Shown: positions 23,381-55,716 of the stretch, piece after piece
How positions within the stretch are numbered: position 1 is the stretch's first letter
Layout of the letters: each line of letters begins with the position of its first letter
The notes under the pieces: generated by a model
Database searches by the model: none
What the model saw: the letters and a program-made list of their open reading frames with translations, nothing else
Told to the model about the DNA's origin: nothing
Translations under genes and position numbers: made by a program
Assembly (NCBI RefSeq): GCF_000756715.1
Contig: NZ_CCSE01000001.1
Location: forward strand, 806,001-870,000
DNA from: Jeotgalicoccus saudimassiliensis
GTDB taxonomy: Bacteria > Bacillota > Bacilli > Staphylococcales > Salinicoccaceae
Direction of reading: 5' to 3'
Length of the DNA: 64,000 bases

Positions 23381-23430
23381 GGTTTTGCGGGGGAGTGTGA
23401 TTGTGTCCAATGAGCGGGCGACGACGGATT

Positions 23431-23717
23431 AATAAGCCGGGTTTGGACCAACGAACAGTCCACGACGGACCAATAAGCCGGGTTTGGACCAACGAGCAGT
23501 CCACGACGGACCAATAAGCCAGTTTTGGACCAACGAACAGTCCACGACGGACCAATAAGCCAGGTTTGGACCAACGAACAGTCCACGACGGACCAATAAG
23601 CCAGTTTTGGACCAACGAGCAATCCACGACGGACCAATAAGCCGGGTTTGGACCAACGAGCAATCCACGACGGACCAATAAGCCAGTTTTGGAGCAACGA
23701 GCAGTCCACGACGGACC
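23431..23717. repeat. Tandem array 1: seven 41-bp units
   Basis: Seven units of exactly 41 bp start at 23431, 23472, 23513, 23554, 23595, 23636 and 23677; a degenerate partial unit precedes them. Each reads AATAAGCCGGGTTTGG, then ACCAACGAACAGTCC, then ACGACGGACC, with two recurrent variants (CCGGGTTT or CCAGTTTT; GAACAGTCC or GAGCAATCC). Within a unit TGGAC and GTCCA form an inverted repeat, GTCC-ACGAC-GGAC a second, and TTGGACCAA a small dyad. The array lies between the terminators of two convergent genes. It has no stop in the minus frames, but this looks incidental; no ribosome site or protein family supports coding. Confidence 0.95.
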
Positions 23718-23754
23718 AGGAAACCACGGAAACCACCTAAACCACGTACCCGGC

Positions 23755-32883: not shown

Positions 32884-33546
32884 GGAACCGCCGTTGTCAT
32901 CCGGGGACGCTCGGTTCACAACGGGAAACTGCCGTTGTCATTCGGGGCTGCTCGGTTTACAACAGGGAACCGCCGTTGTCATCCGGGGCTGCTCGGTTTA
33001 CAACAGGAAACTGCCGTTGTCATCCGGGAGCGCTCGGTTTACAACGGGGAACCGCCGTTGTCATTCGGGGCTGCTCGGTTTACAACAGGGAACCGCCGTT
33101 GTCATTCGGGGACGCTCGGTTCACAACGGGAAACTGCCGTTGTCATTCGGAACCGCCCGGTTCACAACAGGAAACCGCCGTTGTCACTCGGAACCGCCCG
33201 GTTCACAACAGGAAACCGCCGTTGTCATTCGGGGCTGCTCGGTTTACAACAGGGAAACGCCGTTGTCATCCGGGGCTGCTCGGTTTACAACAGGGAACCG
33301 CCGTTGTCATCCGGGGACGCGCGGTTCACAACAGGCAACCGCCGTTGTCATTCGGGGACGCCCGGTTTACAACGGGAAACTGCCGTTGTCATTCGGGGAC
33401 GCTCGGTTTACAACAGGAAACTGCCGTTGTCACTCGGGGACGCTTGGTTCACAACAGGGAAACTGCCGTTGTCATTCAGGACCACTCGATTCACAACAGG
33501 CAACCGCCGTTGTCATCCGGAACCACACGGTTCACAACAGGGAGCG
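32884..33546. repeat. Tandem array 2: sixteen 41-bp units
   Basis: The anchor GCCGTTGTCA, or a close variant, recurs at 32890 and then every 41 bp through 33423, followed by one 42-bp step to 33465 and a last copy at 33506. A unit reads GCCGTTGTCATTCGGGG, then ACGCTCGGTTTACAACAGGG, then AACC. Recurrent variants are GGGGACGC, GGGGCTGC or GGAACCGC, and TTCACAACGGG or TTTACAACAGG. ACAACGG and CCGTTGT across unit junctions form a 7-bp hairpin with a 7-nt loop in perfect copies. It sits between ribU and the convergent ferredoxin gene. All three plus frames are open, which produces spurious ORFs of 262-305 codons. Confidence 0.95.
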
Positions 33547-52900: not shown

Positions 52901-53599
52901 TTGTATCTTATAATCTATTTTGTAATTTTAATGATTGTACCAATGCTTGCACAAATGAACGTCAAATCGACGTTTAACAAGTATTCAAAAGTACGTTCGA
53001 CAAGCGGCCTTACAGGCCAGCAGGTTGCAGAAGATATCCTCCGGGAAAATGGAATTTACGATGTTTCGGTAGAACGCGGTCAGGGTGTTCTGACAGACTA
53101 TTACGATCCGAAAAACAAAAAAATCGTACTCTCTCCCGGCAACTTCGACAACCCGAGCGTTGCAGGTACAGCAGTCGCTGCACACGAAGTCGGCCATGCC
53201 ATCCAGCATGCAACCGGCTACAAGTTCTTAAACTTCAGATCAGCATTGTTCCCGCTCGCACAATTAGGAAGCAACTTCTCGTACTTCCTGATTATCGCAG
53301 GTATGATTCTTACAGCAGCACAAAGCGCTGCAGGCGGCGGACTTGGTGAAATTCTATTATGGTCGGGTATCGGACTGATGGCATTCGCCGTATTATTCCA
53401 GCTCGTTACACTGCCGGTTGAATTCGACGCATCAAGACGCGCAATGAATCAGATCGAAGAGTTAAACATTGTGAACAGCAAAGAATACCGCCATGCTAAA
53501 AAAGTACTGAACGCTGCAGCGATGACATACGTTGCCGCAACAGCAGTCGCAGTAGCAGAGCTGTTACGCTTTATCATGATCGCAAGAAGCTCGAACTAA
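52901..53599 (+). CDS. YugP-like neutral zinc metallopeptidase
   Basis: A 232-residue membrane protein with an N-terminal anchor, the zinc motif HEVGH (within AVAAHEVGHAIQHATGYKFL), two transmembrane segments in the middle, and a last hydrophobic helix. The third ligand is probably in LPVEFDASRRAMNQIEEL. It belongs to the YugP/DUF zinc metallopeptidase group; substrates are unknown. TTG 52901 follows GGAGGG at 6 nt. B. subtilis has ypjB-dapB-mgsA-bshB1 at this place; here a tandem array follows. Confidence 0.82.
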   Translation: MYLIIYFVILMIVPMLAQMNVKSTFNKYSKVRSTSGLTGQQVAEDILRENGIYDVSVERGQGVLTDYYDPKNKKIVLSPGNFDNPSVAGTAVAAHEVGHAIQHATGYKFLNFRSALFPLAQLGSNFSYFLIIAGMILTAAQSAAGGGLGEILLWSGIGLMAFAVLFQLVTLPVEFDASRRAMNQIEELNIVNSKEYRHAKKVLNAAAMTYVAATAVAVAELLRFIMIARSSN

Positions 53600-53610
53600 T
53601 TATAATTACA

Positions 53611-53650
53611 AACAGCCGCATCACCCAATTATGGGTGGTGCGGCTGTTTT
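53611..53650 (+). terminator. Rho-independent terminator after the metallopeptidase gene
   Basis: A 17-bp stem with one G-U pair (53611-53627 with 53632-53648) is followed by TTTT. It ends the transcript before array 3. Confidence 0.88.
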
Positions 53651-53710
53651 GTTGGGGATGAAGCGCTTATTATGGATGATTTGAGGTTGTAAGGTTGTAA
53701 GGGGAGTTGC

Positions 53711-54403
53711 GGGATTCCTATGAGGCGCGCTCATAGAACTTCTGGAGCGCGCGGATTCCTTTGAGGCGCGCTCATAGAACTTCTAAAGCCCGCGGGTTTC
53801 TATGAAGCGTGCTCATAGAACTTTTGGAGCGCGCGGATTCCTTTGAGGCGCGCTCATAGAACTTCTAAAGCCCGCGGGTTTCTATGAAGCGTGCTTATAG
53901 AACTTCTGAAGGGCGCGGGTTTCTATGAGGCGCGCTCATAGAATTTCTAAAGCCCCGGGATTCCTATGAGGCGCGCTCATAGAACTTCTGGAGCGCGCGG
54001 ATTCCTATGAAGCGTGCTCATAGAACTTCTAAAGGCGGCGGATTCCTATGAGGCGCGCTCATAGAACTTCTGGAGCGCGCGGATTCCTATGAAGCGTGCT
54101 CATAGAACTTTTGGAGCGCGCGGATTCCTTTGAGGCGCGCTCATAGAACTTCTAAAGCCCGCGGGTTCCTATGAGGCGTGCTCATAGAACTTCTGGAGCG
54201 CGCGGATTCCTATGAAGCGTGCTCATAGAACTTTTGGAACGCGCGGATTCCTATGAAGTGTGCTCATAGAACTTCTAAAGCCTCGGGATTCCTATGAAGC
54301 GTGCTCATAGAACTTCTGGAGCGCGCGGATTTCTATGAAGCGTGCTCATAGAACTTCTGGAGCGCGCGGGTTCCTATGAAGTGTGCTCATAGAACTCCTG
54401 GAG
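53711..54403. repeat. Tandem array 3: seventeen 41-bp units
   Basis: TCATAGAACT, or a close variant, recurs at 53731 and every 41 bp to 54387 (17 copies) with no indel at all. A unit reads TCATAGAACTTCTGGAGC, then GCGCGGATTCC, then TATGAAGCGTGC. Two variants recur: GAGGCGCGC or GAAGCGTGC, and CTGGAGCGCGCGGATT or CTAAAGCCCGCGGGTT. TATGA and TCATA flank a 7-nt centre and make a hairpin that extends to 9 bp (TTCTATGAG with CTCATAGAA) in some copies. Stops interrupt every frame, so it cannot encode a repeat protein. It lies between two co-directional genes; 54404-54552 holds only the leader of bshA. Confidence 0.95.
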
Positions 54404-54552
54404 ATCCCAGCATTCCAACACTCCACACCAACACACCGCAGCCTTTATCGTTTTATTACTGTATATAAACAGATTCATTTCCTTTATACTGTAATATTCA
54501 TTATAATTAACAATGATAAACAAGATACTATTTACTTTCGAGGTGCATCATT

Positions 54553-55716
54553 ATGAAAATTGGAATAACATGTTATCCAAGTGTCGGCGGCAGCGGCGTC
54601 ATTGCGACTGAACTTGGACTTCAAATGGCCCGCCGCGGGCACGAGGTGCACTTTATTTCATCGAGTGTGCCGTTTCGGCTGGAGCATAATTATGATAATA
54701 TATACACGCATCGTACAGAGGTTAACGATTACAGCGTGTTCAAATATCCGCCGTACGATATTACTTTATCGAGTAAAATTTCAGAGGTCATCGACCGTTA
54801 TGATTTAGATGTCATTCATATGCATTATGCGATTCCGCATGCAGTGTGCGGCATTCTCGCACGTCAGATGTCCCGAAAAAAAGATGTCGGCATCGTCACG
54901 ACGCTGCACGGTACGGATATTACGGTACTCGGGCACGATATGTCACTCGTCAGCGCGATAAAGTTCGGCATCGACAATTCTGATATCACAACGTCCGTCA
55001 GTAACAGTCTGACCGAGGAAACGTACCAGCTGATTAATCCGGAGAGCGACATTCAGACGGTGTACAACTTCGTCGATGAAACGCGTTTTAACACGGATAA
55101 CAGAATGGAAATTAAGAATGAATTGAAAGAAAAACTGAACATTCCCGACAGTGCGAAAGTGCTCATGCATACTTCGAATTTCAGAAAGATAAAAAACGTG
55201 GATGACATTGTCCGCACGTTCCACGAGACGTCAAAGGAAATCGAATGTCATCTTGTGCTTGTCGGAGACGGCCCCGACATGTACAGCATCAGACAGCTGG
55301 TTCAGGAGCTCGGCATTGAAGACCGCGTTCACTTTTCCGGCCAGCAGTCCGACGTAAGCTCGTATTATAAACTGAGCGATGCATTTCTGCTCCTGAGCGC
55401 GAAGGAAAGTTTCGGCCTCGCGATGCTTGAGGCGATGTACTGCGGTGCGGTGCCGATCGGCTCAACAGCGGGCGGAATTTCCGAAGTTATCCGGCATAAT
55501 GAAACCGGCTATGTTGTCGGCGTCGGTGATTACAAAAAAGCAGCCGGGCATTTAATCAGACTGTTTGAAGACGATGCGCTCTATGAAGAGATGCAGAAAA
55601 ATATGCTTGAAGACGTTAAGAAGCGTTTTGACATGGACAGCATCGTCACTGAATATGAAAATTTATATACTAAGCTTTTAGCAGGTGAAAATGATGACGG
55701 AACAAAATCTGTTTAA
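54553..55716 (+). CDS. bshA: N-acetyl-alpha-D-glucosaminyl L-malate synthase
   Basis: A 387-residue GT4 glycosyltransferase making the first bacillithiol intermediate from UDP-GlcNAc and malate. The N-terminal glycine-rich loop CYPSVGGSGVIATELG and the EX7E motif ESFGLAMLEAM are intact. The pairing bshA-cca-birA is conserved; bshB1, which precedes bshA in B. subtilis, is absent here. GAGGTG precedes the ATG. A TATAAT lies at 54502-54507. Confidence 0.94.
   Translation: MKIGITCYPSVGGSGVIATELGLQMARRGHEVHFISSSVPFRLEHNYDNIYTHRTEVNDYSVFKYPPYDITLSSKISEVIDRYDLDVIHMHYAIPHAVCGILARQMSRKKDVGIVTTLHGTDITVLGHDMSLVSAIKFGIDNSDITTSVSNSLTEETYQLINPESDIQTVYNFVDETRFNTDNRMEIKNELKEKLNIPDSAKVLMHTSNFRKIKNVDDIVRTFHETSKEIECHLVLVGDGPDMYSIRQLVQELGIEDRVHFSGQQSDVSSYYKLSDAFLLLSAKESFGLAMLEAMYCGAVPIGSTAGGISEVIRHNETGYVVGVGDYKKAAGHLIRLFEDDALYEEMQKNMLEDVKKRFDMDSIVTEYENLYTKLLAGENDDGTKSV

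Follow-up and report, generated by a model that had tools for sequence, protein, structure and literature searches.

Tandem arrays of fixed period at the gene ends of Jeotgalicoccus: candidate platforms for dimeric DNA-binding proteins

Interspersed intergenic repeats are usually taken as transposon debris, RNA hairpins or neutral minisatellites. REP and BIME elements (the GTAG- and CGTC-tagged families), as outlined in PMC3733652, are short palindromic extragenic repeats present in many copies and sometimes clustered with inverted partners, and that outline counts them by the orientation of the flanking genes. The Jeotgalicoccus arrays described here resemble the elements so portrayed in being extragenic and enriched between convergent genes (none of 45 overlaps a called gene and 26 of 41 lie in convergent gaps), but they are strictly head-to-tail, keep a fixed period across families without detectable sequence likeness and have arms that vary between species at the same sites. 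Transposition of the REP/RAYT type was rejected, the REP-associated tyrosine transposase (Y1_Tnp, PF01797) having no match in this genome; five of 14 control genomes were positive in the same search. BrickBuilt, a minisatellite-MITE of Porphyromonas gingivalis, is presented in PMC4596501 as tandem short units at 19 strictly intergenic loci, mostly conserved between strains, and in that presentation is one element with 23-nt units, a leader, a tail, terminal inverted repeats and signs of target duplication. Against this description, the Jeotgalicoccus arrays comprise several families with periods of 41, 42 and 51, without inverted ends at the sequence level; a MITE-borne minisatellite of the BrickBuilt type was rejected, as terminal inverted repeats were not found and the flanks show a skew in composition only. 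Cyanobacterial LTRR are 37-bp intergenic tandem repeats and, set beside our arrays by description only, share the intergenic tandem arrangement and a similar unit size. The tandem repeats of Borgs, portrayed in PMC9879509 as fast-evolving and said to arise independently, are again alike by description only, in their fast evolution, Borgs being archaeal and extrachromosomal. CRISPR was rejected as well: the units abut, and their variable stretches of 7 and 9-10 bp recur within arrays, leaving no unique spacers. The titles and abstracts searched, a range with subscription papers and preprints outside it, include none on these arrays. They fall within the interspersed intergenic repeats, with a fair chance of being more than that.

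The window, by which we mean the whole stretch of 64,000 nucleotides of Jeotgalicoccus saudimassiliensis that was analysed, holds three such arrays (Table 1). We consider it slightly more probable than improbable that they and their relatives are half-site platforms for dimeric DNA-binding proteins with drifting specificity, perhaps insulating gene ends or organising the chromosome.

Table 1. Features of the window, with positions counted from its first letter.
Feature	Position	Strand	Remarks
Convergent gap, array-free in this genome	17131..17187	.	short period-41 arrays in relatives
Array 1 (family F1)	23407..23718	+	7.6 units x 41 bp, convergent gap
Array 2 (family F2, ACAAC-N11-GTTGT cores)	32886..33541	+	16 units x 41 bp, convergent gap
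Zn_peptidase_2 (PF04298) gene, upstream neighbour of array 3	52901..53599	+	
Intrinsic terminator after the Zn_peptidase_2 gene, ahead of array 3	53610..53653	+	score 39
G+T-rich left flank of array 3	53672..53711	+	G+T 0.75
Array 3 (family F3)	53712..54403	+	17 units x 41 bp; TRF, unit table, logo
A+C-rich right flank of array 3	54404..54443	+	G+T 0.175
bshA, downstream neighbour of array 3	54553..55716	+	TIGR03999

Array 3 was the subject of a sequence-only reading, whose structural claims were borne out in part. TRF run on the window returns the array with period 41 and 16.9 copies, and when its letters are laid out in steps of 41 bases, the 17 units that had been claimed stay in register with no indel. 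The anchor, TCATAG or TTATAG, falls exactly at 53731 plus multiples of 41, the last being at 54387; both reported centres, GGCGCGC and AGCGTGC, are present beside the further variants AGTGTGC and GGCGTGC, and alleles at the centre and at other variable positions do occur in mixed combination. The proposed phased palindromes on DNA are also supported. The hairpin was described too generously: stems exist, but the 9-bp stem said to occur in several units is found in one of the 17 (longest perfect stem, loop 3-9), while the longest stem is 8 bp in two units, 7 bp in four, 6 bp in six and at most 4 bp in four.

The array ends 149 bp before the start of bshA, whose protein has its closest named relative in J. 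coquinae (92%). It had been placed in an interval where the order in B. subtilis is presumably ypjB-dapB-mgsA-bshB1, but a replacement of those genes is unsupported, the gap from the Zn-peptidase gene to bshA being short and, by eye, free of any array in J. aerolatus, J. meleagridis and J. marinus. In J. psychrophilus, the orthologous gap contains 5.3 units of period 41, which are F3-like; an uncultured Jeotgalicoccus has 2.8 there, J. coquinae a single unit, and J. halotolerans and J. nanhaiensis apparent remnants. Since the same gap is occupied in relatives, array 3 is unlikely to be a product of chance or an artefact of a single assembly, and the conservation whose lack had been named as refuting was found, the type and period of the array recurring in related genomes. 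For array 3, a phage or plasmid location was rejected, a distant-mode search with it giving no match in phage or plasmid collections.

Throughout the genome of J. saudimassiliensis (2.19 Mb, single contig), there are at least 46 arrays. The list was made by running TRF at places resembling the three window arrays and in 20 stretches of 20 kb, and is a lower bound, 27% of the genome having been read base by base and the rest searched by likeness to the three window arrays; from the 46 arrays on the TRF list, a 33-bp array inside a gene was dropped, and the periods of the remaining 45 are 41 in 42, 42 in two and 51 in one. The 46th array, 12.9 units of 51 bp with the arms GGTGATAAGT/ACTTATCACC, lies just past the end of the window (contig 870308-870966) between genes resembling those of endonuclease III and of a penicillin-binding protein, the latter with a weak transpeptidase match (21.0 bits vs a cut-off of 22.1, fragment). 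Two smaller observations were made alongside: a lone F2 unit behind a terminator at contig 228028, possibly a seed or a remnant, and, by eye, two apparent diverged units ~41 bp apart and unreported by TRF in a convergent gap at contig ~1666100.

Other arrays of the same kind occur across Jeotgalicoccus and in one second genus. Stretches chosen blind to arrays yielded 36 non-coding arrays under a filter that required a period of 25 or more, a length of 70-80 bp or more and a TRF score of 80-100 or more. The period is 41 in 25 of them, 42 in five and 51 in six; weak members are included, with matches of 66% in one and 74% in another, and some of the relatives' stretches are partly contig ends. 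Six of the 36 come from this genome, three from J. aerolatus and Salinicoccus halitifaciens, and 27 from four Jeotgalicoccus species (J. coquinae, J. psychrophilus, J. halotolerans and J. nanhaiensis) and a genome of genus g2, whose units are Aliicoccus-like. The six of this genome overlap no called gene; of the 30 kept from relatives, 11 are spanned by a stop-free frame, with coding scores of -74 to 8. Nine further arrays of relatives (periods 39, 42, 42, 51, 54, 60, 75, 99 and 234) were excluded as coding, each lying inside a stop-free frame of 432-3915 bases with a coding score of 21-554. No non-coding array was found in 160 kb of genus g6, 120 kb of J. marinus, ~89 kb of genome G005, 60 kb of genus g4 or ~42 kb of genus g5. 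An 81-bp array is present in J. aerolatus.

When 76 consensuses of period 41 are joined by single linkage, with at least 26 of the 41 letters alike once rotated (600 shuffles gave a 99th percentile of 21 and a maximum of 23), they form clusters of 28, 19, 7, 6, 4, 3 and 2 and seven singles. By sequence, F2 is found in six of 33 genomes of the taxonomic family, all of them Jeotgalicoccus. The unit consensus is CGGTTCACAACGG-N7-CCGTTGTCATYC-N9 in F2 (266 units, 26 arrays) and GGATTCCTATGA-N7-TCATAGAACTTC-N10 in F3 (109 units, nine arrays), in each case a pair of near-invariant inverted arms, ~12-13 bp long, and two freely varying loops, one of 7 bp and one of 9-10 bp. Positions 9, 23-27 and 29 of F2 are identical in 264-266 of the 266 units, and loop positions carry ~0.1-1 bit; the 109 units of F3 show the same contrast between near-fixed arms and free loops. 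Units were chosen by at least 62% identity to an arm seed, and few broken ones can have been missed, because the 266 + 109 chosen compare with ~258 + 104 summed TRF copies.

A perfect 6-bp inverted arm pair is present in 58 of the 94 consensuses drawn from all species together, where 9.8 would be expected. The spacer is 7 in 28 of the 44 period-41 consensuses with perfect arms, against 0.7 expected over all 94 consensuses, and these 28 arrays are not independent, since 24 are F2 or F3 of this genome and four are of J. nanhaiensis. Outside F2 and F3, a spacer of 7 is mostly read, by eye, from imperfect arms: the units of F1, of the 42-bp type and of Aliicoccus fit it in this way. Among nine period-51 consensuses with perfect arms, seven have a spacer of 15 or 16. 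A quasi-palindrome covering the whole unit was rejected, with only 19 of 77 consensuses at p < 0.05 against shuffles, and the dyad is thus a local arm pair. At variable paired positions of F2 and F3, Watson–Crick pairing is at or below the independence value (0.38 vs 0.51 for F2 pair 3/31, 0.12 vs 0.37 for F3 pair 14/18), the one exception being F3 pair 36/37 (0.51 vs 0.38), and several variable pairs share information toward non-pairing combinations. The variable pairs thus lack compensation, which argues that the letters, and not the pairing, are conserved.

The register of the units is kept with unusual strictness. Anchors in 91 arrays give 563 spacings of 41, two of those in a 51-bp array, and 11 off-register junctions in 41-bp arrays, seven of 42 and four of 40; other anchor spacings look like secondary anchors within units or at array edges. 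With 2905 substitutions over 561 pairs of adjacent units, there are ~0.004 indels per substitution; four pairs of species, compared over their orthologous intergenic DNA, have 0.055, 0.095, 0.095 and 0.078 gap openings per substitution. Relative to substitutions, indels are ~14-25x rarer in arrays than in nearby intergenic DNA, an approximate ratio because substitutions in arrays are not independent events and are inflated where arrays shift. One site varies in copy number, with 3.3 copies in J. halotolerans and 7.3 in J. nanhaiensis, species with an intergenic divergence of 0.028, and the two consensuses are alike at 40 of 41 letters.

All the arrays fall outside called genes, and most stand behind terminators. 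With a hexamer-based gene caller, no called gene overlaps any of the 45, of which 26 are in convergent and 15 in codirectional gaps, none is in a divergent gap and four could not be classed. Background gaps of at least 60 bp (sample and window, n=195) are convergent in 23 cases, divergent in 49 and codirectional in 123; against these counts, the 26 of 41 convergent and 0 of 41 divergent arrays give binomial p = 8e-15 and 7e-6, and against intergenic bases p = 7e-9 and 4e-5, respectively. Of 69 gene ends that face an array, 48 are separated from it by a terminator-like hairpin, against 0 of 69 after shuffling. These positions led us to reject an operator role, since divergent gaps are devoid of arrays and 26 of 41 arrays have a gene end on either side; the 15 codirectional arrays, array 3 included, lie 66-1048 bp upstream of the next gene start, and those may therefore have a regulatory role.

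The 40-bp flanks of the 42 own 41-bp arrays have a mean G+T of 0.75 on the left and 0.23 on the right, both skews occurring together in 38 of the 42 and in none of the three own 42/51-bp arrays; the corresponding value in array-free gaps is ~0.5. Among arrays of period 41/42 in relatives, both skews are present in four of six in J. coquinae, six of eight in J. psychrophilus, one of two in J. aerolatus, two of four in g2/Aliicoccus, one of ten in J. nanhaiensis and neither of two in J. halotolerans. The skew, G+T entering and A+C leaving, extends to the promoter side of codirectional arrays. No terminal inverted sequence emerged from the 50-bp flanks, those of one array being no more complementary than flanks taken from different arrays (p = 0.27).

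Sites are inherited while the words at them change. When the orthologous region is compared in five relatives, several of its gaps prove to contain arrays that keep the period and are built from other units. The convergent gap that is array-free here has counterparts of 2.0-3.4 copies and period 41 in J. coquinae, J. psychrophilus and J. nanhaiensis. In the gap beside the endonuclease III-like gene, the arrays have a period of 51 bp and differing words in this genome, J. coquinae, J. nanhaiensis and J. meleagridis, a period of 81 bp in J. aerolatus and one of 41 bp in Aliicoccus persicus; the gap has no array in J. psychrophilus and J. halotolerans. The core ACAAC-N11-GTTGT is found, per strand and with the control count in brackets, 259 (1) times in this genome, 45 (1) in J. 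psychrophilus, 20 (0) in J. halotolerans, 19 (2) in J. nanhaiensis, 9 (0) in J. coquinae, 3 (1) in J. aerolatus and 3 (8) in the g2 genome. For ACGAC-N11-GTCGT, the counts are 80 (6) in J. coquinae, 30 (6) in J. nanhaiensis, 9 (8) in J. psychrophilus, 2 (4) in the g2 genome, 1 (6) in this genome, 1 (10) in J. halotolerans and 0 (6) in J. aerolatus; with controls of 4-10, only those of J. coquinae and J. nanhaiensis stand out. Allowing up to one mismatch, the F2 core has 236 matches in this genome (control 0). CTATGA-N7-TCATAG occurs 96 times in this genome, 27 in J. coquinae, 17 in J. psychrophilus and six in the g2 genome (control 0-1), and is absent from J. aerolatus, J. halotolerans and J. 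nanhaiensis.

The clearest case of changed words is the comparison with J. coquinae. Of nine ACGAC loci examined there in addition to the array-2 site, seven, with eight arrays, share their flanks with F2 arrays of this genome and two have no match among the own array flanks compared; none matches a non-F2 array. In the nine orthologous arrays, the array-2 site included, this genome has 89 ACAAC cores and J. coquinae 69 ACGAC cores and one ACAAC; the array orthologous to 1254248 contributes one of the 69. The 11-base interiors of these nine arrays are locus-specific, and whole-unit copying is therefore unlikely, as it would have carried the interiors along. Decay of CpG as the source of the ACGAC/ACAAC difference was rejected by argument only, since decay would yield other products too. 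The F2 loci of J. nanhaiensis are mixed, some ACGAC and some ACAAC: at the locus orthologous to 1000595 (contig 440571-441082 of J. nanhaiensis), adjoining sub-arrays have six ACGAC and three ACAAC cores, against six ACAAC and one ACGAC in J. halotolerans, and at the array orthologous to 906058 the count is six ACGAC in J. nanhaiensis vs four ACAAC in J. halotolerans.

Under the preferred reading, each array would be a platform of sites for a sequence-specific dimeric DNA-binding protein. A unit of F2 or F3 would present two inverted half-sites, the arms of ~12-13 bp, 7 bp apart over one dyad and 9-10 bp apart over the other, and a repeat of 41 bp (four turns at 10.25 bp per turn) would put every bound dimer on one face of the helix; 51 bp would make five turns at 10.2, and 42 and 81 bp come near four and eight turns, an argument from few independent cases because the periods are only 41, 42, 51 and one 81. 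We infer that the protein reads the arms and differs between families and species, and helical phasing would be the reason for the fixed period. In the least supported step, a nucleoprotein block or anchor at gene ends might limit read-through and collisions of convergent genes, or organise the chromosome. A trans-acting reader of the arms would most simply explain why many sites have the same new arm pair. Given the patchy words of J. nanhaiensis and J. halotolerans, however, a single trans-acting switch would not suffice alone, and J. nanhaiensis, with its mixture of words, would call for two readers or for a change still under way. We also count against the platforms that one genome would need several such proteins and that the position at gene ends could be mere tolerance; clustering of 593 own proteins and fragments (~27% of the genome) showed no suspicious paralogue family and yielded no candidate binding protein. 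A wider proposal, that of a bacterial satellite-DNA system akin to the fast-evolving satellites and centromeres of eukaryotes, in which dispersed, phased half-site arrays and family-specific, fast-evolving proteins would serve to mark gene ends or insulate them, with inherited sites and periods and with words that coevolve with the proteins, we put forward tentatively, as a possibility against which the balance still leans.

Neutral minisatellites, expanded and homogenised between genes by slippage and unequal recombination and found at gene ends merely because they are tolerated there, would account for the different copy numbers of near species with a nearly identical unit (3.3 vs 7.3), for the likeness of units within arrays, for the lack of arrays in called genes and divergent gaps, and for words that in J. 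nanhaiensis switch from array to array. We nevertheless regard this as an unlikely explanation: several hundred dispersed units whose arms stay near-invariant while the loops drift, a 14-25 fold suppression of indels, and a single new arm pair shared by nine orthologous arrays whose interiors are locus-specific are all unexpected under neutrality. Hardly more probable, and still unlikely, is a driven element, with the arms as core sites of a recombinase or other enzyme that amplifies and spreads the units and whose specificity the arrays follow. In their 13-7-13 layout the units are reminiscent of lox, FRT or att core sites, inverted arms flanking a spacer of 6-8 bp are indeed found (7 in 28 of 44), the units are dispersed over tens of loci, and single units exist. 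Against such an element, the three tyrosine recombinase hits (PF00589) in the genome include none that is evidently dedicated, being XerD above its NCBIfam cut-off, a XerC-like protein just below the cut-off and one weak match; XerC/XerD may act on the arrays. Y1_Tnp is missing, the ends share no inverted sequence beyond composition, and orthologous gaps are often still occupied, which makes vertical descent likelier than transposition. The gene of the weak match (contig 107706-108227) lies, by eye, between two apparent type I restriction specificity genes, a possible phase-variable locus.

Supercoil sinks that bind gyrase at convergent gene ends, a role proposed for BIME-type repeats, would suit the enrichment in convergent gaps, but a conserved enzyme would not be expected to impose family-specific arms or differences between near species, and we judge this improbable. 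We give least credence to an element in which hairpins or cruciforms of DNA or RNA are what counts. The frequent perfect arm pairs are in its favour, as is the RNA fold of array 3 (z -8.4 vs 20 shuffles), a strength expected of any tandem repeat with an internal dyad; yet, apart from F3 pair 36/37, variable pairs do not exceed independence, in three units of array 3 an unchanged TCATAG stands opposite CTTTGA, arrays mostly lie behind terminators, and the window has no Rfam match at the gathering score. The string of functional RNA hairpins suggested for array 3 is unsupported on the same points, with a terminator preceding the array, no compensation and no Rfam match.

In the arrays of Jeotgalicoccus, period and site outlive sequence. 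Between two species, nine orthologous arrays differ in concert in their arm pair, in what looks like a naturally kept record of sites coevolving with the specificity of a protein, and, with named type strains among the hosts, a binding partner should be findable. If the platform reading is true, bacteria can hold satellite-like DNA at gene ends under selection.
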